Shown here: positions 41,172 through 51,734 of the stretch, piece after piece | Position numbering within the stretch: the first letter of the stretch is position 1 | How the letters are laid out: every line of letters starts with the position of its first letter | Assembly (NCBI RefSeq): GCF_003863355.1 | Contig: NZ_QQWG01000001.1 | Span: 434,001-498,000 of the forward strand | DNA: 64,000 nucleotides | From: Ancylomarina euxina | GTDB taxonomy: Bacteria > Bacteroidota > Bacteroidia > Bacteroidales > Marinifilaceae | Reading direction: 5' to 3' | Translations under genes and position numbers: made by a program | The notes under the pieces: model-generated | Database searches by the model: none | The model's input: only the letters and a program-made list of their open reading frames with translations | What the model was told of the DNA's origin: nothing

Positions 41172-42644
41172 ATGCTCATCAAAACCTACGGAAGTGCTGT
41201 GTATGGAATTCATGCCACCACCATCACAATTGAAGTTAATGTTTTTAATGGCGTTCGTTTTTCTTTGGTTGGTTTACCCGATAATGCCGTGAAGGAAAGC
41301 CAGCAGCGTATTGATTCTGCTTTAAGAGAAGTTGGTTATAAAATTCCAGGTAAAAAGATCATTATTAATATGGCACCTGCTGATATTCGGAAGGAAGGCT
41401 CGGCCTATGATTTGCCCTTAGCCGTTGGAATATTAACGGCTACTGAACAAATTAAATGTCCAGACTTGCAAAAATATGTGATTATGGGTGAGCTTTCTTT
41501 GGATGGAAGTTTAGTGCCTATTAAAGGTGTTTTACCTATGGCTATAAAGGCCCGAGAAGAAGGTTTTGAAGGTTTGATTTTACCAAAGGAAAATGCGAAA
41601 GAAGCGGCAGTTGTCAATAATTTAAAGGTTTATGGCATTGAGAATATTAAGGAACTGATTGATTTCTTTAATGGAGAGGCTGAGTTGGTCATTACAGAAG
41701 TAGATACAAGAGCAGAGTTTTATTCTCATCTGAATCATTTTGAACATGATTTTGCAGATGTAAAAGGACAAGAAAATGTAAAAAGAGCCCTTGAGATTGC
41801 CGCAGCTGGTGGACACAATATCATAATGATTGGCCCTCCAGGTTCTGGAAAGACAATGCTGGCAAAGCGTATTCCAGGTATTTTACCTCCACTAAGTTTA
41901 CAGGAAGCCTTAGAAACTACAAAAATACATTCGGTAGCTGGCACGCTTGAAAAGGGAAGTGGTTTAATGACTAAACGACCATTTAGAAGTCCACATCATA
42001 CGATTTCCGATGTCGCACTGGTTGGGGGCGGAACAATTCCCAAACCCGGTGAAATTAGTTTATCACACAATGGTGTGCTTTTTCTCGATGAATTACCTGA
42101 ATTTAAAAGAACGGTGCTCGAAGTCATGCGACAACCTTTAGAAGATAGAACGATTACAATCTCACGTGCCAAGTTTACGGTTGATTACCCGGCAAGTACG
42201 ATGTTGATTTCATCAATGAATCCCTGCCCTTGCGGGTTTTATAATCATCCAGATAAAGATTGCCTTTGTCCCCCAGGTATGGTTCAAAAATATTTGAGTC
42301 GAATTTCTGGGCCTCTTCTCGATCGAATCGATATTCACATTGAGGTGACACCCGTTTCCTTCGATAAAATTTCAGACGAACGACTTTCTGAAAAGTCCTC
42401 AGTTATTAGAGAAAGGGTAGAGCTCGCTCGTCAGGTTCAATCCGCACGTTTTGTCGATGAGGAAGGCATTCATTCCAATGCCATGATGAGTTCTCGACTT
42501 CTGCGTAAATACTGTCGACCCAACGAAGCTGGTATGCAGCTTTTGAAAGTTGCCATGGAAAAAGTTGGTCTTTCAGCTCGGGCCTACGATCGAATTTTAA
42601 AAGTCACAAAATTTCATTATAAGTCGGTATCTTTATCAGCATGA
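41172..42644 (+). CDS. comM: ComM/YifB AAA+ ATPase (Mg-chelatase-like), 3' end displaced by a mobile island
   Basis: A member of the YifB/ComM family. It has the N-terminal LonC-like domain (SLVGLPDNAVKESQQRIDSAL), Walker A GPPGSGKT at residues 221-228, Walker B FLDELPEFKRTVLEVMRQPLEDR, and MNPCPCG. ComM is a hexameric helicase that aids branch migration during natural transformation. The frame runs into the island after residue 478 (RILKV) and ends with 12 foreign residues (490 in all). The genuine last 34 residues lie at 51630-51731. Joining the halves gives 512 residues, the normal family length. The lost tail is part of the C-terminal domain, so activity is doubtful. Confidence 0.95.
   Translation: MLIKTYGSAVYGIHATTITIEVNVFNGVRFSLVGLPDNAVKESQQRIDSALREVGYKIPGKKIIINMAPADIRKEGSAYDLPLAVGILTATEQIKCPDLQKYVIMGELSLDGSLVPIKGVLPMAIKAREEGFEGLILPKENAKEAAVVNNLKVYGIENIKELIDFFNGEAELVITEVDTRAEFYSHLNHFEHDFADVKGQENVKRALEIAAAGGHNIIMIGPPGSGKTMLAKRIPGILPPLSLQEALETTKIHSVAGTLEKGSGLMTKRPFRSPHHTISDVALVGGGTIPKPGEISLSHNGVLFLDELPEFKRTVLEVMRQPLEDRTITISRAKFTVDYPASTMLISSMNPCPCGFYNHPDKDCLCPPGMVQKYLSRISGPLLDRIDIHIEVTPVSFDKISDERLSEKSSVIRERVELARQVQSARFVDEEGIHSNAMMSSRLLRKYCRPNEAGMQLLKVAMEKVGLSARAYDRILKVTKFHYKSVSLSA
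42600..42604 (+). other. attL core (left comM/island junction)
   Basis: AAAGT shared with the right junction. Upstream is comM, and from 42605 on the sequence is island. The recombination point should lie on two bases inside this word, as serine integrases use a 2-bp crossover. Confidence 0.75.
42606..42626 (+). repeat. Left terminal inverted repeat of the island
   Basis: ACAAAATTTCATTATAAGTC plus G, 21 bp. It is the reverse complement of 51599-51619 with one mismatch (20 of 21). In the circular form the two would face each other across the core and form attP. Confidence 0.85.
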
Positions 42645-42655
42645 TGATAAATACA

Positions 42656-43261
42656 ATGAAAGCAAAGTACATAAGAGTATCGACATTGGAACAAAATACA
42701 GCAAGGCAAAATGTGGGTTGTAAAGAATATAAGCTGTATGAAGATAAGTTGTCTGGTTTAATTCCATTCAGTAAAAGATCTGCAGCAATAAAATTGATGG
42801 AGGATATTGAAAAAGGATATATTAACTATGTTCATATTAGTTCAATAGATCGACTTGGACGAAACGTAATAGATATCCAAAATCAATTGAATTGGTTTGT
42901 TGATAGAAAAGTACAAGTCTATGCTGAGAACATTCAAATGAATCTGCTAAATGAAGACGGAACATTGAATGCAATTGCAAAGATGATTATTGACTTATTA
43001 AGTTCTGTTGCAAGCATCGAAATAAATGCAATTAAAGAACGTCAAATGCAAGGAATTAATATTGCAAAAGTTAAAGGTGATATCTATAAAGGAAGAAAAC
43101 GTGGTGCTGTAATGTCAGATAAAGATTATTTAAAACGACATAAAGATGTCGTTAGCCTTCTCAAGGATGGTTTGAGTTTAAATAAAATTTCGAAACTAAC
43201 TGGTAAAGCATTTGTGACTGTAAAATCGGTTGACCAAAAATTAAATTCTTTAATAGCTTGA
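42656..43261 (+). CDS. Small serine recombinase (resolvase/invertase family)
   Basis: A protein of about 201 residues from the ATG at 42656 (MKAKYIRVS); the frame is open 15 bases earlier. The catalytic serine is S9 in YIRVST, and the arginines of SSIDRLGRN are in place. The long E helix (IIDLLSSVASIEINAIKERQMQGINIAK) and a C-terminal helix-turn-helix (LLKDGLSLNKISKLTGKAFVTVKSV) complete the resolvase architecture. It starts 30 bases inside the left repeat, at the opposite end from the large integrase. It could resolve multimers, invert a segment or assist excision; none is shown by sequence. Confidence 0.88.
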   Translation: MKAKYIRVSTLEQNTARQNVGCKEYKLYEDKLSGLIPFSKRSAAIKLMEDIEKGYINYVHISSIDRLGRNVIDIQNQLNWFVDRKVQVYAENIQMNLLNEDGTLNAIAKMIIDLLSSVASIEINAIKERQMQGINIAKVKGDIYKGRKRGAVMSDKDYLKRHKDVVSLLKDGLSLNKISKLTGKAFVTVKSVDQKLNSLIA

Positions 43262-43622
43262 TTTTAACATTCTTTTAAAGTCTTGATAATCAAAGGATAG
43301 TTTTAACCTAATATATAAGATATAACAAGAAAAGATTTAAGTAATTGTTTTTATATGTTAATGTTAAAAATGAGATGAATACATATGGAAATGTAACGTT
43401 TTTAAATGAAATTTTAATGATTAATAATTGTCAAAAAGATATAACGTTAATGTAATCAGATAGATAATAAAATTGCGCCTTTTTGCAAGTAATCTGAGTA
43501 AACCACCTTGTTCCTCAAGGGGTTTTATTAAATCAAGAAGTGAAAATAATCGTTTTTGAGATTGAATACAGTAATTGATTCGAATCTTGTGAATCGCATA
43601 TTAATGATTTTGTGTATCAGTT
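43262..43622. other. Island intergenic region between recombinase and RNA polymerase genes
   Basis: These 361 bases are AT-rich and separate convergent genes. They hold a terminator (43500-43525) and two GTTAATGT words (43357-43364 and near 43445). No coding sequence is seen. Confidence 0.5.
43500..43525. terminator. Intrinsic terminator in the island
   Basis: AAACC-A-CCTTG pairs with CAAGG-GGTTT with one bulged A and a 5-base loop, followed by TTTATT on the plus strand and TTTACTC on the minus strand. It can serve either of the convergent genes. Confidence 0.6.
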
Positions 43623-45923
43623 CTAACTAAAAAAATATTCATTCTTCTTCATTAAGTCGAGTTTAATTTCAATCGTATTTTTATTATCGTTTTGATAAGG
43701 AAGTTTTATTTTGTCAATTTTCTTGACTTGTGCTGTACTGTCATCTAATTGAGAAATTAATTGTTCATGAAGAAACTCTATTGGATTCGTTTTAATTAAT
43801 GCAATAAATTCCTTCTTGATAATAACTAACATCTTATCTACATGATTTGGATGACAGCCAAATGAATCATGTATCCAATCAGAGGATTTAATGTTATTAT
43901 TTCGTAATCTTAATGCAACTCGTCTCAATAAATCCGCATCAAGTGAATGAATGAAATTTGGACTAATTGCTCTCCTCATTTTTTTTGAATCGATTATTGA
44001 TGAACGATCTTTTTGAAAAATATTAATTTGTTTTTCTGAATTTGGAAGCTTCAATGTTATCTGTTTTTTACTAGCTTCTTTGTATTTAACATGGTTAACC
44101 ATAAAGCCATCAGATGTTTTCCAACTTATAGCTTTATTGGACTTTGTTAAAATTGAATTCATTTCTTGAATATACTTTTCGAATGCTTTACCTCCGTTTA
44201 ATTCTCCATAGATTGCTTCTCCAATAATCCTTGATAGATGTAATGCACTTTCCTTTGTTATCCAATGAGTGTCAATATTGTTTTGAATAATACTTTTCCA
44301 TATTAAATCAGACATACCAATTGTAGTACCTCCATAATTTGAAATCATAACGGGGGTTTTACATATGCTTCTTCCGTTGGTTTCTAATAATTTCATCAAT
44401 ATTTCCAATTTCTCAATTTTATCTTCATGTTGGAATTCATTTTTCATATTCATTTTGAATTTCAGCTCATTTAATTCATCATCTATTAGATCGATTGATG
44501 TTTCAGCTATACGAATATAAATATCTTCTCTTTTTTGATTCCCATTTTTATCAAACGTCGGTATAACATTTGTTGCCTCACAACCTGCTATATCTCCTGT
44601 GATTGCAGATGTAAATTGACTACCACTGTTACATGCATCAAGATGAATTCTGGTTTTAATTTTGTAATTAGAATCGTTGATGAAATTTTGCATTTCTATT
44701 TGATGCGATAGGAATTGATATGGTTTATCAGCTTGTTTATAGGAGGTATTAAGCATTTCTTTTCCTCTTTGAACTCTATGTGTAAATGGCAATTTATCAT
44801 CGCCATAGAGCGAAGCTAAATAAGCCCAACACCAATTTTCACCATTTTTTGTTAATTGTTCTCCTTGAGCATATTCAAGCATTGCTTTAATAGCATCTGT
44901 CCCTTGAGGAGATAATATTGATGGAATAGGATAGATTCTTCCTCTTGAATCATATGAGTGAGGAAAGTATATTGTTTTATCAATATATTTTTTTGCAAGT
45001 TTAATTGCTAATTTGTGAGTTCGATAATTGCTTAATGCTGATTCGTATTGATTGTAATAAGCTTTATATAATTCGAGTGATTGTAAATATATTTTTCGAT
45101 TATCTTTAATCTTTGCTCTTTCAGATTCACTTATCTTTAGAGAGCTATCATTTAGATCAATTTCTAATTTGCAACTTTTATTATCTGGTTTATTAAACTT
45201 TACAAAATCGTTATACCTTGGTTCTACAAGATCTTGTTCTATTCTCATTAAGACCGATTCATTTATACACCATGCTGTTGACTGGATGTAATTTATAGAA
45301 TCAAATACATTTTTAGAGTATAACGAATAGTCAATATCTCGGACATGTGATCTGATCATTTCATATTGTATATGCTGATATCCTCCGCTGATTGTATTGT
45401 TCTCGTATTTCCAATCAACTGGTTGTTCTGTCAATGGAGAAGGGAAAAATGACTTGTATGACTGAACGGAAATATCGTTTAAGATGTCATTGGGAATATT
45501 ACAAGAATAGAATACTTGTCTTTTGTATGTACCTGAATTATCATCTCCACTCTCATTAAGACAGAAATATTGACTTGCATCAACTATGATTTCAACAAAT
45601 CGCCATGTGTGTTCGAAAGACAACTCTGTTAATATCTTATTTTGAATTAAATTAATATGCTTGTGTCGAGTTTTAATTGACCCATTGCCACCTGAATGAG
45701 AATCAATGTTTGTTAAATATGAAAGAAGAAATAGAATTTCAGTGATTTTAGTTTTTATAATTTCATCATCATTAAAATAAGTTTTTAGAAGAGTCCGATA
45801 CTTTCTTGCACATCCATTATAAATCCAATTTTTCACATGCGGTATAATGTTTGACGCTTCATGTATTAATAATTCGTTCTTCAATATTTTCGTTCGATCC
45901 ATTATTCTTATTTCGATAATCAA
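43623..45923 (-). CDS. T7-type single-subunit DNA-directed RNA polymerase
   Basis: A 766-residue protein of the phage/mitochondrial RNA polymerase family. The catalytic set is complete: first Mg aspartate D429 in HLDACNSGSQ (T7 D537), K522 and Y530-G531 in RSICKTPVMISNYGG (T7 K631, Y639), and D686 in WIHDSFG (T7 D812). PHSYDSRGRIYPIPSILSPQGTD (321-343), SPNFIHSLDADLLRRV (654-669) and the C-terminal FFS foot match too. Spacing D-to-K is 93 residues (94 in T7). The N-terminal region is about 108 residues shorter than in T7, so promoter binding may differ. ATG codons at 45923 and 45902 are both possible starts. It should transcribe DNA alone, from promoters not yet known. Confidence 0.93.
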   Translation of the reverse strand: MIIEIRIMDRTKILKNELLIHEASNIIPHVKNWIYNGCARKYRTLLKTYFNDDEIIKTKITEILFLLSYLTNIDSHSGGNGSIKTRHKHINLIQNKILTELSFEHTWRFVEIIVDASQYFCLNESGDDNSGTYKRQVFYSCNIPNDILNDISVQSYKSFFPSPLTEQPVDWKYENNTISGGYQHIQYEMIRSHVRDIDYSLYSKNVFDSINYIQSTAWCINESVLMRIEQDLVEPRYNDFVKFNKPDNKSCKLEIDLNDSSLKISESERAKIKDNRKIYLQSLELYKAYYNQYESALSNYRTHKLAIKLAKKYIDKTIYFPHSYDSRGRIYPIPSILSPQGTDAIKAMLEYAQGEQLTKNGENWCWAYLASLYGDDKLPFTHRVQRGKEMLNTSYKQADKPYQFLSHQIEMQNFINDSNYKIKTRIHLDACNSGSQFTSAITGDIAGCEATNVIPTFDKNGNQKREDIYIRIAETSIDLIDDELNELKFKMNMKNEFQHEDKIEKLEILMKLLETNGRSICKTPVMISNYGGTTIGMSDLIWKSIIQNNIDTHWITKESALHLSRIIGEAIYGELNGGKAFEKYIQEMNSILTKSNKAISWKTSDGFMVNHVKYKEASKKQITLKLPNSEKQINIFQKDRSSIIDSKKMRRAISPNFIHSLDADLLRRVALRLRNNNIKSSDWIHDSFGCHPNHVDKMLVIIKKEFIALIKTNPIEFLHEQLISQLDDSTAQVKKIDKIKLPYQNDNKNTIEIKLDLMKKNEYFFS

Positions 45924-46079
45924 TTCAATTTGTCTTACTCATTTTCTATAAACCTTTAAGCTACTATAAGGTTTAAATTTAATATCGCACTAAAATAAGA
46001 TTCTTTGAGATGAATCTGCTTGAAGTTTGCTATTAATGTTTAAGGTATACTCTAAATGTTAATTGTTTCATAATAATGT

Positions 46080-46100
46080 TACTTTTGATTTAAATCAAAA
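46080..46100 (+). promoter_or_regulatory. -7 box and palindromic operator before the nuclease gene
   Basis: TACTTTTG (46080-46087) overlaps the 18-base perfect palindrome TTTTGATTTAAATCAAAA (46083-46100), which ends nine bases before the start codon. The core TTGAT-N4-ATCAA equals the FNR-type consensus. A regulator could bind here and block transcription of the nuclease gene. No good -33 box is seen. Confidence 0.45.
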
Positions 46101-46109
46101 AAATACATT

Positions 46110-47006
46110 ATGACAGTACAATTTTCACAAACGGAAACAGACATACTAGATCAATTTACTGCAGGAACAAGTTTCACACTTGATTCTAAAAATTATACAG
46201 TTTTGGAATCAGGTAAGCCAAGACCTCCAAAGGGAGAAGGTAAAACAGATCTTTATATCTTGGCAAATGATTCTAACAATAATTCTATTGAACTAAAAAT
46301 ATCAATAAAACAGCATAATGCTGATTTTCTTGAAAACAAAATTAGTTTAGATAGAGCGATACAAATACTAGGGGATGATGCTCAAGATATTATTAGTGAT
46401 TCAATAAGTGACATCGAAGATGAATTTCGTGATGATTATTTAATAACTATCAATAAATATGGGCGCACCGTAGCGAAGACATTAAAGATAGGTTGGAAAT
46501 TCGAATTGCTTAATTGTAAAAGTGGAGCTAAATCAGGATTGATGAAACTTAATGACGCACAAAAAATAGATGTTTATTCAGGTTCTAATCTTGATTGTTC
46601 AAAAAAGAATTCCAATGTTAATGGTCGAATAGTAGCTAATTCAGGTGTTGCAAATTGTATATTAGAACTAAAGAAAAATCCAACATTGACTACTCAAACC
46701 ATAATAAACGATTTGAGACCCATCGCTGATTATGCTAAAACACAAAGTATTTATTTTGCGTGTAAGGCTGTAAATTATAGAATGACCCCAGATAAATGGG
46801 ATGGGAATCGACCATTAGCTGTTTATGTGAATTGGTTTATAGATGATTCGAAACTTAATGGCGAAATTGTATTTGATTCTCCATTAAGCACGTCAGCAAA
46901 TAGTATTGGTAAGAATATTAGAAAACTCCTTAAAATATTAAATATAAATGATGGAAATTTTAAGTCGATTAAAACCATTTTGGAAAATGTAAAATATTAC
47001 GAATAA
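46110..47006 (+). CDS. Probable type II restriction endonuclease (PD-(D/E)XK)
   Basis: A 298-residue protein not recognised as a named enzyme. Residues 40-68 (PKGEGKTDLYILANDSNNNSIELKISIKQ) have a PD-(D/E)XK nuclease layout: D47, then E61-x-K63 after 13 residues, and the KTD...ELKISIKQ wording seen in restriction enzymes that bind Mg2+. The rest is alpha/beta without known motifs. It lies directly upstream of a C-protein-like regulator and a C5 methyltransferase, the context of a type II system. The nuclease call rests on motif plus context. The cut site is unknown. Confidence 0.72.
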   Translation: MTVQFSQTETDILDQFTAGTSFTLDSKNYTVLESGKPRPPKGEGKTDLYILANDSNNNSIELKISIKQHNADFLENKISLDRAIQILGDDAQDIISDSISDIEDEFRDDYLITINKYGRTVAKTLKIGWKFELLNCKSGAKSGLMKLNDAQKIDVYSGSNLDCSKKNSNVNGRIVANSGVANCILELKKNPTLTTQTIINDLRPIADYAKTQSIYFACKAVNYRMTPDKWDGNRPLAVYVNWFIDDSKLNGEIVFDSPLSTSANSIGKNIRKLLKILNINDGNFKSIKTILENVKYYE

Positions 47007-47012
47007 TTTAAA

Positions 47013-47047
47013 TATATTTGTCAAATAATGACAAGTCGAAATAAGAC
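47013..47047 (+). promoter_or_regulatory. Promoter with tandem C-box-like operators
   Basis: TATATTTG (47013-47020) runs into TTGTCA-AATAA-TGACAA (47018-47034). Two dyads of the form GTC-N7-GAC lie in tandem, at 47020-47032 and 47035-47047, with centres 15 bp apart. Tandem dyads just before a C gene are the hallmark of controller-protein operators in restriction-modification systems. The regulator gene starts 7 bases later. Confidence 0.65.
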
Positions 47048-47053
47048 ATCTCT

Positions 47054-47365
47054 ATGAAGATTACATTTGGCGAATATATTCGAAAACTCAGAAATGAAAA
47101 AGAATTAACTTTAACGCAACTTGCGGCGTTACTTGGATTAGATTCTGCTAATTTAAGTAAGATCGAAAATGGGAAAAGAGATTTCGACGAAAAAAGATTA
47201 ATTATATTATCTGAAATATTTAATATTAGAGAAGATGTAATACGACAAGAGTATATAGGTGACATAATTGCAAAAACTCTTTATGAGAACAATTGTAATG
47301 AAGCTATATTTACAATGGTCAAAGAGAAGGTTAAATACTTAGAACAAAAAGAAGTTAAAATATGA
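47054..47365 (+). CDS. XRE-family regulator, probable controller (C) protein
   Basis: A 103-residue protein with an N-terminal helix-turn-helix (residues ~8-62; [37 protein letters not shown]). It is a little longer than classical C proteins (about 80 residues). It overlaps the methyltransferase gene by 4 bases, so the two are translated together. The tandem dyads in front of it suggest autoregulation that delays or limits methyltransferase and nuclease timing after entry into a new host. Confidence 0.82.
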
Positions 47366-48393
47366 AAGTAGTTTCGTTTTTTGCAGGAGCAGGCGGATTA
47401 GATTTGGGATTTGAAAAGGCTGGATTTGATGTAATATGGGCAAATGAATACGATAAAGTTATTTGGGAAACATATGAGAAAAATCATAAACAGACTACTC
47501 TAGACAGGAGAAGTATTGTTGATATTAAGTCTGATGAGGTTCCTGAATGCGATGGAATTATTGGAGGACCGCCATGTCAAAGCTGGAGTGAAGCAGGTGC
47601 TTTAAGAGGAATAAATGATAAACGAGGTCAATTATTTTTCGACTTTATAAGAATCTTAGAAGCTAAACAACCAAAATTCTTTTTAGCAGAGAATGTTAGT
47701 GGAATGTTATTACCTAGACATAAAGATGCTCTTGAGAATATTAAGGAAATGTTTAGAAATGCAGGATACGAACTTTCTTTTCAACTATTAAATGCTTGTG
47801 ATTATAATGTTCCACAGGATAGAAAACGTGTGTTTTTTGTAGGAATTAGAAAAGACCTTGGGTTTAAATTTGAATTTCCAAACATCACTTATCCCAAAGT
47901 TGATTTGTTAACTACCATAGGTGATCTAAAAGAAAATGCAGTTCCTGCTTTAGAGAAAAATCATACAAACCAAATGTCTTGCGTTATACCTAATCATGAA
48001 TACATGATAGGTGGATTTTCGACTATGTTTATGTCTAGAAATCGTGTGCGAAAATGGGATGAACAATCATTTACAATTCAAGCTGGTGGTAGACATGCTC
48101 CTATACATCCTCAAGCTCCAACTATGGAACTTGTTGAAAAGGATAAACGGAAATTTGTTGAAGGACAAGAACATTTGTATAGACGTTTAAGTGTAAGAGA
48201 ATGTGCAAGAATTCAGACTTTTCCTGATGATTTTATTTTTTATTATTCCAAAGTTGCTGACGCTTATAAAATGATTGGTAATGCTGTTCCTGTAAATTTT
48301 GGGAACTTTATGGCAGAATGTATTAAACAGCAGATTGAAGAGTGTGAAAAGAATAAAGGTAAAGTTATATCTAAAGAATGTGCAGAAATCTAA
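47362..48393 (+). CDS. DNA (cytosine-5-)-methyltransferase
   Basis: A 343-residue C5 methyltransferase with all main motifs in order: [32 protein letters not shown] with catalytic C72, VI AENV (E110), [41 protein letters not shown], and [13 protein letters not shown]. It transfers methyl from SAM to cytosine within a target site, protecting host DNA from the partner nuclease. The target-recognition region (~185-250) is short; the sequence recognised cannot be read from it. It ends at a strong terminator. Confidence 0.95.
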
Positions 48394-48456
48394 CAAGCAC
48401 ATAAAGTATCTGATTAAATTCACTTTATTGCAACACAAAGTAGGAAACATTTACAG

Positions 48457-48478
48457 GATTAGACTTTATAGTCTAATC
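48457..48478 (+). terminator. Methyltransferase terminator
   Basis: GATTAGACT pairs with AGTCTAATC (9 bp, loop TTAT), followed by ten T. Confidence 0.88.
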
Positions 48479-48736
48479 TTTTTTTTTTATTACAGTTATT
48501 AGACGATTTAAGGCACAATTTAAATGTTAATGTGTATAATCGAAACATTATATTTTTGAAAAAATAACGAAATCAAGAATATATTTAATTCATTAAGAAA
48601 ACAATGATATAAAGCGTTTTGATCTTGATGTAGCATTCTATATCATTTGAAAAAGATCGTGTGTTATATCGCCGTAAATCATGATTAAAAATGAAATTAC
48701 TGTATGGGATTGGATAGTTTGAATATAAAAAAAAGA

Positions 48737-48767
48737 CAAGCTTCATAAAGATCGTTTATGAAGCTTG
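48737..48767 (-). terminator. Terminator of the secreted-protein gene
   Basis: A 13-bp perfect stem (CAAGCTTCATAAA / TTTATGAAGCTTG, 5-base loop). On the minus strand it is followed by a long run of U. Confidence 0.85.
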
Positions 48768-48806
48768 CCTTTTCTATTAATAATGCAGGATGTCAATATT
48801 TGCAAA

Positions 48807-49622
48807 CTACATTTTCTCAATACATTTTAAATACTCTTGATATTTAATACCATCTTTTATTTCACTATCATAGATGTATAATCTCACATCAGATATTATC
48901 TTTTGCGATAAAGTTTCAATTTCTTCTTTCTCTAGATTAAAGAATGCTGAATATGTAAATCCTCCACCATTGCGACTGACTTTTGAATCTACTTCAACAT
49001 TAGGTCTTTCTATTTTTGTACCATCTTTAAAAAGAATTATAACACCTTTAATTCCTACATTAATTGTACTTCCAGAAACCTGAATACTCATATAGTTGGT
49101 TATTGAAGAATCAGTTTGAACTCGTAGGAATGATATTGGATTGATGTATGGTGAATGATATTTGGTTTTATTTGTAAATTTATCCTTCTCTACAATTATG
49201 CTATTACAATAATCCTCGATATTTTCCTTGATAACTACTTTTTTTGTTTTAAGTGGCTTTATCTCTTTGATTATATATTGAGGACTATATGTCATAGAGT
49301 TCAATCGAATTTTAAATCGATTACCTGTCGTATTATCAATGATATTTGTTTGGAATTTTAAATTAGTAACACCGTTTACTTTTCCAATTTCCTCAATTGC
49401 AATATTACTGAATCCATATTTTTCTAATTTTTTTGGAACTCTTTTGTTTAGAGCATTAATTACTGCGGAACTTAATCCGATATTCGTAATTTCTTTTAAA
49501 TATTCGTTAGTGAATGTTTCTTTTACTTCAAGAGTTTTCTTTCCTACTGGTGCTACTTGAGCAGTAGAATTAAATGACATTACTAACGCGATAATAATGA
49601 CTAAAAGAGATAGTTTTTTCAT
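48807..49622 (-). CDS. Secreted protein of unknown function, island cargo
   Basis: A 271-residue protein with a clear signal peptide (MKKLSLLVIIIALVMSFNSTAQ). The mature part is a mix of strands and helices, rich in Lys and Ile, without cysteine pairs, lipobox, catalytic motifs or membrane anchors that I recognise. I cannot assign a family. It has its own terminator and an unusual structured spacer upstream. As the only exported product of the island it might act at the cell envelope, for example in exclusion; that is speculation. Confidence 0.8.
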   Translation of the reverse strand: MKKLSLLVIIIALVMSFNSTAQVAPVGKKTLEVKETFTNEYLKEITNIGLSSAVINALNKRVPKKLEKYGFSNIAIEEIGKVNGVTNLKFQTNIIDNTTGNRFKIRLNSMTYSPQYIIKEIKPLKTKKVVIKENIEDYCNSIIVEKDKFTNKTKYHSPYINPISFLRVQTDSSITNYMSIQVSGSTINVGIKGVIILFKDGTKIERPNVEVDSKVSRNGGGFTYSAFFNLEKEEIETLSQKIISDVRLYIYDSEIKDGIKYQEYLKCIEKM

Positions 49623-49984
49623 ATTGATTCTTTAAATAAAATAATGAATCCATAAGGTTCTTTCGGATACGGATAGTGCTCTATGTAAATTGAAAGAGGG
49701 CGTGAACCTCTACTAATGATTTAATAATACGAGGTATCTGGAAACACCCTAGAAGATTAAACACAGCAGAATAGAACACGCCCATGCAGGCGCGTCAACT
49801 CAACCATTTCCTCTTCTATTAAATTTTCCAGATTTTCGTATAGAGAAATAATTAGTAACGCAAACTCTTTATATGTAGTATATTATCTTTTGTTTAGATC
49901 ATGTATGAAATTTTTACTTGTTTCAATGTTTAAAAATAGAACATATCTGACAATTTTCTTTATGAATGTTAATCTTATTTTACA
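49623..49984. other. Island intergenic region with structured segment
   Basis: The 362 bases between two minus-strand genes hold a dense set of complementary segments at 49698-49833. Outside this I see only AT-rich sequence and one ATGTTAAT word near 49966. Confidence 0.5.
49698..49833. ncRNA. Candidate structured RNA with nested and crossing stems
   Basis: Perfect complementary pairs: GGGCGTG (49698-49704) with CACGCCC (49777-49783); ACCTC (49706-49710) with GAGGT (49731-49735); ATCTGGAAA (49736-49744) with TTTCCAGAT (49825-49833); TAGAAGA (49750-49756) with TCTTCTA (49812-49818). The third and fourth pairs stack into one long arm. The first pair crosses that arm, which would make a pseudoknot or a switch between two folds. 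The strand is unknown; on the minus strand it would be the leader of the secreted-protein gene. No known RNA family is recognised. Confidence 0.42.
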
Positions 49985-51562
49985 TTATTCATCCCAATAC
50001 TGATATGTTTTAACTCCATTTTCTCGAATTATTTTTTTTATCCTCCTTACTTTAGGGTAAACACCTTCATTAAGCTCTTCTGTATCTGCATGATCTTCGA
50101 AAGGCAAATTGTCCCAATCAAGAGTTGTATATTTATTTTGTCCATTATTTTCCTTTAAAGATTTCTTATATGCAAATAATTGATGTCCACGATATATTGG
50201 TATCATTGCTTTTGCCCAACCTTTTATTTTAACAACAGCAAAATCGTCTCCGATTTCTATCCATTCTAATATCTTTAATAATTGTGATTTAAAAATATCA
50301 TGATTATCACTGTAATGTATTATTTCGTTGTCAAGACTGTTTTGAAGCGCTCTATTGGTTTCATATAAATCTTTCATATCAATCTCTATTTGAGATAATT
50401 CATACTCAAATTTGCGCTCAAAAGCATCGTATTTAACATCATCAATCTTACTAGATAATAATCTTTCATAGTTTTTTTCAGACATTATTTTTAATGCTCG
50501 TTTTCTTTTTAGGTGTGTGGTAAGATTGGCATTATTAGTATCGATTTTTTGTTTTAAATCTGATCTAACTAATTCATCTTTCGATAGACTTGCATTACTT
50601 TCTAGTACGTTTCGTACTTCCTGGATTAAGAATGGTCTATTAACAGATTTCGTATCACACTTTTTAGAACAGCGATAAATATTTATATTATTTGACTTTA
50701 TGATGATTTGATTCATTGTTGCACCACATTTACACTTTATGAATGAGGCGAAAGGATTAACATGGACACCAATTCGTCCAGCAAATCGCTTTCTTTCATC
50801 GATAAATTTTTGTGCTGCATTGAATGTTTCTTCATCAACAATCGCTGGAACTTTAATGATTGAATCATTATATTTTCTTTTCCCACAATAAAAGGAGTTA
50901 CGTACGATTGAATGAACACTTCCAGTTTTCCATTCTTTTGTTTCGTAATTTTCATTAAGATAGTTTACTATCGTCCTTACTCCAACACCATTAAGTAGTA
51001 ATTCAAACATTTTTTTAACGAGAATAGATTCTCCTTCATTAATAACAGGCTTGCCATCAGAACCTTTATCGTAACCATAAATTTTAGCACTAAAACATCC
51101 TCCTTGACTTGCTGCAAATTGTTTTCCCGATTTAATTCGATGACTTAATGAAATGGATTCTTGTTGTGCCATACTGGAAAGCATTCCTGTCATCATTTGG
51201 ACAGTTGGATTTTCAACTCCATTCTCATTTAATGTTGATAACCCTTCTTTTTGTATATGAATTGCTATACCTTTTTTAGTGCAATCATCAATAAAATTTA
51301 CGATATCAATATATCGTCTAGATAATCTGCTTAATTCACTAACCATTATGTGCTTGATATTATTATCCTGAATGTAATCAAGCATTTTATTGAATTCAAT
51401 CCTTTCATCCAACCCTTTTCTAAAACCTGATATTTTCTCTGCAAATATTGCAGAGATGTCTAATTTTAAATACTGAGCCCAACGTTTTAAATCATCAATT
51501 TGACGATCGAATGATTGAGAGTCATCTGTTGAACTTACTCTTGCGTATATAACTGCTTTCAT
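49985..51562 (-). CDS. Large serine recombinase (integrase of the island)
   Basis: A 525-residue large serine integrase. The catalytic domain (residues 1-145) has S10 in IYARVSS and the arginines of SELSRLSRRYIDIV. The Recombinase domain (~155-265; AKIYGYDKGSDGKPVINEGES) and a zinc-ribbon domain with KCKCG and CSKKC come next, then a coiled-coil region (~350-410) that controls direction in this family. It starts 37 bases inside the right terminal repeat, the usual place of an integrase next to its att site. It is the likely cause of the insertion into comM. Excision normally needs a small directionality factor, which I cannot identify. Confidence 0.95.
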   Translation of the reverse strand: MKAVIYARVSSTDDSQSFDRQIDDLKRWAQYLKLDISAIFAEKISGFRKGLDERIEFNKMLDYIQDNNIKHIMVSELSRLSRRYIDIVNFIDDCTKKGIAIHIQKEGLSTLNENGVENPTVQMMTGMLSSMAQQESISLSHRIKSGKQFAASQGGCFSAKIYGYDKGSDGKPVINEGESILVKKMFELLLNGVGVRTIVNYLNENYETKEWKTGSVHSIVRNSFYCGKRKYNDSIIKVPAIVDEETFNAAQKFIDERKRFAGRIGVHVNPFASFIKCKCGATMNQIIIKSNNINIYRCSKKCDTKSVNRPFLIQEVRNVLESNASLSKDELVRSDLKQKIDTNNANLTTHLKRKRALKIMSEKNYERLLSSKIDDVKYDAFERKFEYELSQIEIDMKDLYETNRALQNSLDNEIIHYSDNHDIFKSQLLKILEWIEIGDDFAVVKIKGWAKAMIPIYRGHQLFAYKKSLKENNGQNKYTTLDWDNLPFEDHADTEELNEGVYPKVRRIKKIIRENGVKTYQYWDE

Positions 51563-51598
51563 ATTAAATTGTTTGCCTAAATATAAATGAAAAATAAT

Positions 51599-51619
51599 CG
51601 ACTTACAATGAAATTTTGT
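51599..51619 (-). repeat. Right terminal inverted repeat of the island
   Basis: The 21-bp counterpart of 42606-42626 in inverted orientation, with one G/A difference. Together they are the two arms of the predicted attP. Confidence 0.85.
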
Positions 51620-51623
51620 AATT

Positions 51624-51628
51624 AAAGT
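51624..51628 (+). other. attR core (right island/comM junction)
   Basis: AAAGT, the same 5-bp word as at the left junction. comM resumes in frame with the GTT codon at 51627. Confidence 0.75.
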
Positions 51629-51734
51629 TTCGCGAACAATTGCCGACCTGGAAGGCTCTGAGACTATTGAGACCGATCATTTATCTGAAGCTATTCAGTA
51701 CCGAAGTTTGGATCGTGATGGTTGGGGAGGGTGA
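51627..51734 (+). pseudogene. comM: 3' remnant of comM
   Basis: Reads [12 protein letters not shown]...[13 protein letters not shown] and ends with TGA at 51732-51734. [10 protein letters not shown] and AIQYRSLDR are the conserved C terminus of YifB/ComM proteins. It has no start codon of its own and is separated from its gene by the 9.0-kb island. Precise excision would restore the gene. Confidence 0.95.

Follow-up and report, generated by a model that had tools for sequence, protein, structure and literature searches.

Why would a bacterial chromosome carry, on an island rather than in a phage genome, the gene of a single-subunit RNA polymerase? The question is raised by a gene in the window, the whole 64,000-nucleotide stretch of Ancylomarina euxina DNA analysed here. 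The enzyme family is known and is found in phages; what is new is a copy on an integrative element without recognised phage genes, in one genome. An earlier reading of the sequence alone had proposed a T7-type polymerase that transcribes its island from promoters of its own.

The island encodes a predicted single-subunit RNA polymerase

The polymerase ORF was present at the position given by the sequence-only reading, in a frame without stop codon or frameshift. Its likelier start is the ATG at 45902 (759 aa) rather than the TTG at 45923 chosen there, and the residues then named as D429, K522, Y530 and D686 are D422, K515, Y523 and D679 in the 759-aa numbering. The proposed T7-type identity held: PF00940 RNA_pol matched at 5.3e-52 (Pfam; 177.6 bits, cut-off 22), PHROG 414 'RNA polymerase' at 3.8e-123, and the best solved relative by sequence was T7 RNA polymerase (9e-30). 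Family membership was judged by the catalytic Asp pair, the Arg, Lys and Tyr of the fingers and the His preceding the second Asp, and all six residues (D422, R511, K515, Y523, H678 and D679) were identical in the island enzyme, in 17 of 17 close and in 5 of 5 distant phage enzymes, as the earlier claim of a complete catalytic set implied. The gene is thus predicted to encode a real, intact-looking single-subunit RNA polymerase.

The suggested structural comparison with the T7 enzyme bore this out. An AlphaFold model built from a 26-row alignment reached a pLDDT of 86.4 and a pTM of 0.77, and the best 50 of 166 Foldseek matches were mitochondrial and T7 RNA polymerases, with E-values down to 2.6e-30 (8atv), TM-scores on the model of 0.54-0.64 and an overall rmsd of 10.6-19 (T7 enzyme 1cez: TM-score 0.64, rmsd 10.6). 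The model predicts a right-hand fold of the T7/mitochondrial type. Fold, active-site residues and motif order are common to the island enzyme and the T7 and mitochondrial RNA polymerases (PF00940), whereas the best T7-type phage records are only about 25-27% identical to it.

The nearest relatives are enzymes of Cbastvirus-type phages

Assignment to the single-subunit family stood, but T7-like phages or prophages as its closest kin did not: the nearest relatives were polymerases of Cbastvirus-type phages, such as Cellulophaga phage phiST (NC_020842) and Tenacibaculum phage Larrie (ON950054), the latter described as a lytic siphovirus. An IMG/VR search returned 94 polymerase relatives, and 79 loci were kept for neighbourhood comparison. 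When the neighbours of close homologues were listed, as had been proposed, 26 of 26 close IMG/VR relatives adjoined terminase, portal or primase-helicase genes of Cbastvirus-type phages; unlike them, the island polymerase has no terminase, portal or primase-helicase gene beside it that Pfam or PHROG recognised. Homologues confined to complete T7-like prophages, the outcome that would have told against the earlier reading, were not what was found.

Two trees were built from the island enzyme, phiST, Larrie and a selection of the 79 IMG/VR loci: 33 in the larger tree, and 17 close with 5 distant ones in the second. Near-duplicates, fragments, most distant loci and one locus with an interrupted frame were omitted. 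The island, phiST and Larrie polymerases fell into one 20-row clade with 100/100 support in both trees. The second tree is to be read with care because of an unsettled bootstrap, an unusual letter composition of the island row and the meeting of long branches. The distant phage enzymes split off by a long branch with full support (T7 itself is absent from the trees), and in an AU test a sister position of the island enzyme to the phage group was not rejected (p 0.52).

Identity to each of the 17 close phage enzymes was only 42-49%, which does not support a recent copy of a known Cbastvirus gene. At 166 columns invariant in the 17 phage enzymes the island enzyme kept 145, substituted 19 and lost 2 by deletion, while each phage enzyme deviates at 0-5 of 145-150 such columns; several of the substituted columns show the residue of the distant enzymes. 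The sequence-only reading had taken a shortened N-terminus as the sign of a separate branch. Most of this shortness is a trait of the whole group (764-792 aa in the 17 phage enzymes against 759 aa), though about 30 conserved N-terminal residues are specifically absent from the island enzyme, and a separate branch draws some support from the changed columns and the AU test instead of from N-terminal length. The island polymerase may be an early side branch of the Cbastvirus-type group, with which it has in common full-length homology, size class, catalytic residues and a C-terminal FFS, and from which it differs by the N-terminal loss, by the changes at phage-invariant columns and by its place in a chromosome, on an integrative element in which no phage genes were recognised.

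The polymerase gene lies on a serine-integrase element inserted in comM

The features of the element are listed in Table 1. Five relatives were aligned, in which comM is uninterrupted (three of four genus mates and two others). Relatives match residues 1-480 of the 490-residue truncated frame inside longer frames of their own. AAAGT stands at both junctions, with the inverted-repeat arms just inside as in an integrase-type attP, and G+C is 29.5% in the element against 36% in the 9 kb on either side. A SusC/RagA-type match suggests that the host belongs to Bacteroidota. A terminal gene for a protein that combines a Resolvase with a Recombinase domain, an attL/attR core repeat, a dyad attP and an empty site in relatives together identify a large-serine-integrase integrative element, inserted in the DNA-uptake gene comM at codon 478.

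Table 1 Features of the element and its junctions (window coordinates)
Feature	Coordinates	Strand	Basis
comM (Mg-chelatase-like / YifB family); native up to and including codon 478, followed by 12 foreign residues	41172..42644	+	PF01078 7.5e-97
Left-junction copy of the 5-bp repeat (AAAGT)	42600..42604	+	junction alignment
Inserted element, 9,024 bp	42605..51628	.	junctions against uninterrupted comM of relatives
Left arm of 21-bp inverted repeat (attP half)	42606..42626	+	95% complementary to 51599-51619
Small serine recombinase of the resolvase/invertase type (ORF open from 42641; start probably at 42656, by eye)	42656..43261	+	PF00239 5.2e-21; PHROG 125 DNA invertase 6.6e-31
Predicted single-subunit RNA polymerase, Cbastvirus type, 759 aa	43623..45902	-	Pfam, PHROG, solved relatives, tree, model, residues
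Predicted type II restriction endonuclease	46110..47006	+	PADLOC REase_II 3.5e-48
HTH protein, probable controller (C) protein	47054..47365	+	PF01381 2.7e-12; PADLOC best HTH_VI 3.5e-11, Control_protein 1.1e-07
Predicted C5-cytosine DNA methyltransferase	47362..48393	+	PF00145 1.5e-100; PADLOC MTase_II 2.7e-113
271-aa protein, signal-peptide-like N-terminus (by eye), without known family	48807..49622	-	Pfam, PHROG, NCBIfam, PADLOC negative
Structured RNA resembling a leader, upstream of the secreted-protein gene	49640..49850	-	folding z -3.5
Large serine integrase, 525 aa	49985..51562	-	PF00239 4.1e-30; PF07508 1.9e-15; PHROG 95 integrase 9.5e-77
Right arm of 21-bp inverted repeat (attP half)	51599..51619	+	95% complementary to left arm
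Right AAAGT (51624-51628) and orphaned comM 3' end	51624..51734	+	junction alignment

Scans of the element with Pfam, PHROG and NCBIfam recognised no capsid, portal, terminase or tail gene, and no replication gene with these or PADLOC. With its junctions defined, the description as a chromosomal island in which no further phage genes are recognised was upheld, and a T7-like prophage is ruled out by the lack of recognised structural genes and by the Cbastvirus-type kinship of the polymerase.

Pfam and PADLOC also confirmed the restriction-modification genes and the two serine recombinases said to accompany the polymerase. The endonuclease and methyltransferase genes stand side by side with the HTH gene between them, a complete-looking gene set whose predicted activity is type II restriction-modification; Pfam, PHROG and NCBIfam gave no match to the endonuclease. 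A PHROG 864 (DNA primase) match to part of the methyltransferase (1.3e-07) was read as a shared methyltransferase domain.

Insertion in comM and defence cargo recall AbaR and other comM-borne elements of Acinetobacter, where a Tn7-like element targets comM, in contrast to the large serine integrase at codon 478 here; the accessible text of that source mentions no RNA polymerase (PMC11472951).

The polymerase-carrying island is known from one genome

PF00940 was found in 1 of 194 relatives, 1 of 393 order genomes, 1 of 395 phylum genomes and 1 of 395 class genomes, each time the genome itself, in samples that overlap and in surveys whose sole positive control was that genome (0 positives among 14 control genomes). 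The earlier statement that such genes are rare in bacterial chromosomes fits these samples well. Plasmid records held single-subunit RNA polymerase genes in 3 of 72,556 cases, which resemble the island in that the gene lies outside a phage record; these copies are 22-26% identical to the island polymerase. Unlike the island, Vibrio panuliri pVPan1 has genes for a portal and a major capsid protein as well; on the 11.4-kb Peribacillus plasmid the annotation splits the polymerase into two ORFs, and the Shinella record is without annotation at the polymerase locus.

The other island genes gave a similar picture. The large serine integrase had no relative in IMG/VR, and the other island genes were absent from the polymerase loci compared there; IMG/VR holds viral contigs only, and the absence of an island gene in it says nothing on other islands. 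The integrase matched 976 plasmid records, all below 60% identity and 4 of them over at least 80% of its length. Serine-recombinase matches in 40 of 95 other relatives were partial or of low identity (best 37% over residues 3-233). The restriction endonuclease occurred in 1 of 247 order genomes (its own) and, at 29-34%, in 5 plasmid records, and the 271-aa secreted protein in 1 of 96 genomes (its own), with no match in the 95 others. Two scans of genome contigs by a few short peptide patterns found no relative, a weak sign of absence.

Motif searches gave no convincing promoter

Motif searches of the island, phiST, Larrie and phage contigs gave no convincing promoter for the island polymerase, and the claim that island genes are read from dedicated promoters is unsupported so far. 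The strongest phage motif was GTATCTTTA, with 24 intergenic copies in phiST. GTTG stands about 19 bp upstream in 15 of the 24, which is a host-type promoter layout in Bacteroidota. Larrie carries TATCTTTG or TATATTTG in its place. For these reasons GTATCTTTA, initially a candidate for the promoter of the polymerase, was set aside, and because of the host-type layout it may not be a phage polymerase promoter. The window holds one GTATCTTTAT, at 42627, whose TATCTTTA lies 28 nt before the likely resolvase start. After masking of GTATCTTTA, an EM motif search on phiST and Larrie (widths 18 and 24, three shuffles) yielded AT-rich motifs only: phiST at width 18 was level with the shuffles, Larrie was below them, and phiST at width 24 reached 135 against 118-125 with a motif that is partly a GTTG remnant.

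Within the intergenic DNA of the element a 25-bp block occurs twice on the + strand (46039-46063 and 48507-48531; 21/25 identical), the first copy 46 bp before the endonuclease start. The shared pattern, built from these same two copies, had no site with fewer than 3 mismatches elsewhere in the genome. It is a weak lead as a promoter, since 3 of 60 shuffles equalled or beat the pair and the block showed no clear enrichment across 2 complete phages and 25 contigs. Host-type -7 boxes were present upstream of 1 of 5 island genes and 4 of 34 other window genes; this gives no contrast between the two sets of genes, and on this count the host polymerase may read the island.

Possible roles of the polymerase

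The anatomy of the element and the family of the enzyme are established; activity, promoters and timing we infer as follows. A working polymerase would have been acquired from the Cbastvirus-type group, or from a sister group outside the sampling, and retained by the element as a transcriptase for its own use. With short promoters that it recognises itself, the enzyme would read at least one gene of the element independently of the host polymerase, for instance in a cell whose transcription an infecting phage has seized or silenced. Dedicated transcription of island genes is our leading guess among roles, and a phage-derived enzyme kept for that purpose is a reading we prefer tentatively, at less than even odds. 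The gene may still be, or recently have been, under selection, because it has no stop codon and keeps 145 of the 166 phage-invariant columns; relaxed selection is possible because the 21 changed columns compare with 0-5 in each phage enzyme.

If the enzyme serves the island, a bacterial mobile element would possess its own transcription machine, independent of the host enzyme on which both phages and the regulators of the host act. Such an element would offer a small test case for single-subunit RNA polymerases leaving phages for other genomes, as is assumed to have happened for mitochondria, and AT-rich bacterial hosts might gain a new promoter-polymerase pair. A decidedly doubtful extension is a class of defence islands with their own phage-type RNA polymerase, self-transcribing or self-priming when a phage disables the host polymerase, whose enzyme would be an old, early-branching Cbastvirus-group lineage living on islands and not in virions. 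In such a cell the defence and mobility genes of the island would stay expressed, or its DNA would still be copied.

The gene could instead be a passenger, taken up from a phage of the Cbastvirus type or from one of its relatives, without a selected role and intact through recent capture. This is unlikely, yet a serious contender: the single instance in all four surveys, the altered phage-invariant columns and the absence of a promoter from the motif searches all speak for it. Against it, the frame is full-length and the tested catalytic residues are kept despite 42-49% identity, which points to selection if the lineage has long been outside phages. The best 40 blastn matches (2 phages, 26 IMG/VR contigs) all lie within the polymerase gene, and a random phage fragment is therefore not what was captured. 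Even a passenger would document that a serine-integrase element, both of whose ends are defined, captured a single phage gene precisely.

Rather improbably, the polymerase would act against phages, recognising Cbastvirus-like promoters and thereby mistiming phage expression or marking infection, beside restriction-modification. Its grouping with the phages' own polymerases, companion genes that resemble a defence system in PADLOC and close relatives residing in phages, one of them described as lytic, are consistent with such a device; the PADLOC models, however, gave the polymerase no match.

Priming in a minimal phage satellite, where the polymerase would make replication primers in place of the primase of known satellites, is very unlikely. 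The island is like PICMI, PLE and PICI satellites in being small and site-specifically integrated with defence cargo, and like PICMIs it has an integrase and defined att sites. It differs in that Pfam, PHROG, NCBIfam and PADLOC recognised no helicase, initiator, packaging or capsid-remodelling gene; a replication module would exist only if the polymerase serves as one. TV-Pol elements, which reportedly come from a study of Iyer, Abhiman and Aravind in 2008, are a further parallel. According to the accessible text of PMC2579912, their polymerase is related to T7-like RNA polymerases and occurs in bacteria on mobile DNA that also has recombinases, in the vicinity of restriction-modification operons. 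TV-Pol is a separate minimal family of proposed primase-polymerases, whereas the island protein is a full PF00940 enzyme with a strong profile match. The same text has T7-like enzymes doubling as primases in mitochondria (PMC2579912), and the PICMI Prim is described, in the accessible text of its source, as a putative RNA polymerase that makes short primers (PMC10803314).

Contamination with phage DNA or a chimeric assembly is scarcely credible even in a draft of 77 contigs, given that housekeeping genes flank the element within a contig of 536,674 bp, that comM matches on either side at one point, that a junction repeat and matching inverted-repeat arms are present, and that the phiST large terminase had no match in the genome (a search without positive control).

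A leader-like RNA in the element

The leader-like RNA had no Rfam match at E 0.5. DUF805 RNA was discarded as its identity, as the RF03081 matches in one genome do not cover the matching stretches but follow about 25 bp downstream. The stretch was matched in 3 of 95 other genomes, and the 4 sequences have a two-hairpin consensus in common, with one pair changed on both sides.

An element carrying a phage-type RNA polymerase interrupts comM

The comM gene is unbroken in three genus mates (G002-G004) and in the related genomes G008 and G010. In A. euxina it is native up to and including codon 478, after which 9,024 bp of foreign DNA follow, with a G+C content of 29.5% against 36% in the 9 kb on each side. 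The terminal arms are complementary, so that joining the ends into a circle would place a dyad around the core, the arrangement that a large serine integrase would be expected to use. The element sits within a contig of 536,674 bp among housekeeping genes that include thymidylate synthase, trigger factor, purH, rodA and inorganic pyrophosphatase, and an assembly artefact is an unlikely source of the island. One report describes comM as a gene that takes up elements in Acinetobacter, some bearing defence genes (PMC11472951). In the fourth genus mate, G001, comM is interrupted elsewhere, near codon 285-289, by an element of ~38.5 kb that bears Tn7-like genes. One end of this element encodes a TnsA-like endonuclease and a Mu/integrase-type transposase, its interior carries heavy-metal transport genes, and a serine resolvase lies close to the opposite end. 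This insertion is a second, unrelated event in comM.

Features of the element and of the comM locus (positions in the window unless a genome is named)
Feature	Position	Strand	Remark
Inserted element	42605-51628
AAAGT, one copy per junction	42600-42604 and 51624-51628
21-bp arms	42606-42626 and 51599-51619		just inside junctions; 95% complementary
GTATCTTTAT	42627-42636	+	adjoins left att arm; sole copy in window
Single-subunit RNA polymerase ORF	43623-45923	-
Possible small RNA gene	48481-48775		methyltransferase to secreted-protein gene
Possible leader RNA	49640-49850	-	precedes secreted-protein gene
Large serine integrase	49985-51562		right end of element; PF00239 and PF07508
Separated comM 3' end	51624-51734
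comM element of G001 (loci L121, L122)	G001:C1, about 517900-556381		9 ORFs scanned

From the left, the element encodes a small serine recombinase, the polymerase, a restriction endonuclease, an HTH protein, a C5 methyltransferase, a 271-residue protein and the integrase, with the endonuclease, HTH and methyltransferase genes all in the same direction. The endonuclease was recognised by PADLOC only (REase_II, 3.5e-48), and the 271-residue protein looks secreted and matches no known family. The methyltransferase also partially matched a PHROG labelled DNA primase, a hit that was discounted. Profile searches including PHROG and PADLOC recognised no virion, packaging or replication gene on the element, and the phiST terminase had no match anywhere in the genome in a search run without a positive control. 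The sequence-only reading of an island without phage genes is supported in that none besides the polymerase was recognised.

The polymerase retains the family active site and resembles Cbastvirus-type phage enzymes

The sequence-only reading located the polymerase ORF correctly; its TTG start adds seven residues, and the likelier start is the ATG at 45902, which yields a protein of 759 residues. The protein matched PF00940 with 177.6 bits (cut-off 22) and PHROG 414 at 3.8e-123, and D422, R511, K515, Y523, H678 and D679 are the same in the island enzyme, all 17 close and all five distant phage enzymes. An AlphaFold model, built on an alignment of 26 rows from the window and IMG/VR alone, reached a pLDDT of 86.4 and a pTM of 0.77. 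The 50 matching structures listed are mitochondrial and T7 RNA polymerases (E from 2.6e-30), and the model does not lack the fingers/palm fold on which the T7-type assignment had been staked. The TM-scores to these 50 were only 0.54-0.64 on the model with a large overall rmsd (10.6-19), indicating that domain positions differ or are poorly fixed in the model.

The polymerase was matched by 2,555 of 50,697 phage records, and the six top records (45-46% identity, 98% query coverage) were Tenacibaculum phage Larrie (ON950054) and five phiST-type Cellulophaga phages; the next-ranked records fell to 26%. Among 79 IMG/VR loci kept, all 26 at or above 42% identity had, within the stretch retrieved around them, a terminase, portal or primase-helicase gene like those of phiST, and the remaining 53 carried polymerases 23-28% identical. 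None of the 79 had relatives of the island integrase, resolvase, endonuclease, HTH or secreted protein at E 1e-4; one (L037) had a methyltransferase match of 36%. The 40 best blastn matches of the element to phages all lay within the polymerase gene. In each of two trees, the island and Cbastvirus-type enzymes formed one group of 20 rows with 100/100 support. Larrie is described as an exclusively lytic siphovirus that lacks integration genes (PMC10013915).

Identity to 17 phage enzymes was 42-49%, and 46-83% (median 53%) among the phages themselves. Of 166 columns that do not vary among the 17 phages, the island enzyme has substitutions at 19 and deletions at two; in a leave-one-out control each phage enzyme departs at 0-5 of 145-150 columns. 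At columns 393, 461 and 756, for example, the island shares the residue of distant enzymes where all 17 phages share another, whereas columns 465, 512 and 708 carry changes unique to the island. Across the five distant enzymes, the island residue is present at 9 of the 21 changed columns and the phage residue at 13. The separate branch proposed earlier is compatible with the AU test, which did not reject the island as sister to all sampled phages (p 0.52) and does not establish that position.

In line with the sequence-only reading, the enzyme is very rare in the bacterial genomes sampled. The polymerase or its family was found in this genome alone among 194 relatives and 393 order, 395 phylum and 395 class genomes (the samples overlap, and all 14 control genomes were negative). 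The species-genome collection gave no relative in two pattern scans, which are weak evidence given how few short patterns they used. Only three of 72,556 plasmid records matched, at 22-26%: one carries phage portal and capsid genes, one has no annotation at that place, and the third, an 11.4-kb Peribacillus plasmid (NZ_CP110135), has the polymerase gene annotated as two ORFs. All other annotated genes of NZ_CP110135 are hypothetical.

Possible roles of the polymerase

We tentatively favour a role in which the polymerase would act as a transcriptase dedicated to its element: the element is compact, its other recognised genes are devoted to mobility and defence, and it retains an enzyme of 759 residues in which every catalytic residue tested is intact. 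Nearly as likely, though itself doubtful, is that the gene is a passenger. The private changes, seen in one copy only, fit altered function and relaxed selection alike. Interference with related phages is unlikely. Priming the replication of a satellite-like element is improbable. It has a parallel in PICMI satellites, which carry genes for excision/integration, antiviral defence and replication, the last including Prim, which putatively synthesises short RNA primers (PMC10803314). TV-Pol, found on bacterial mobile elements, is a distinct family of polymerases related to T7-like RNA polymerases (PMC2579912). Among the titles and abstract openings listed by searches of a literature collection with few subscription papers, none reported a single-subunit RNA polymerase on a restriction-modification island. 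The element combines known parts in an arrangement not found described, with exact boundaries, in one genome, and with a putative role for the polymerase; the initial observation stands and its interpretation is borne out in part.

Candidate promoters and RNA elements

The strongest upstream motif of phiST (NC_020842) was GTATCTTTA, with 24 intergenic copies (e.g. at 73358, plus strand), 15 of them preceded by GTTG at ~19 bp. This pair is likely a host-type promoter ahead of many phiST genes; its layout resembles that of Bacteroidota host promoters, with TTTA in place of their TTTG. In Larrie, TATCTTTG or TATATTTG takes its place, frequently preceded by an AAATTTTAACA-like block. After GTATCTTTA was masked, EM returned AT-rich motifs only, one of four settings scoring above its three shuffles. 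Host-type -7 boxes are about alike in frequency upstream of island genes (1/5) and elsewhere in the window (4/34). GTATCTTTAT is the same as the phiST promoter core, and the TATCTTTA within it begins 28 nt before the likely start codon of the resolvase.

A 25-bp block occurs twice on the same strand in island intergenic DNA, one copy 46 bp upstream of the restriction operon. A pair as good or better arose in 3 of 60 shuffles, the block was not clearly enriched in the phages, and the sole other genomic match to its pattern has three mismatches (the reversed control gave four matches within three); as a candidate promoter it is a lead only. One copy lies inside a gene-free stretch of ~250 bp between two strong terminator-like hairpins, which may be a small RNA gene.

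The secreted-protein gene is preceded by a structured RNA-like leader (folding z -3.5) with no Rfam match, possibly an undescribed leader RNA. It recurs at ~70% identity once in the related genome G067 and twice in G094 (L132, L133, L135), and the four sequences have a common two-hairpin consensus with one compensatory pair. In G094 each copy is followed, ~25 bp downstream, by a DUF805 RNA (RF03081).
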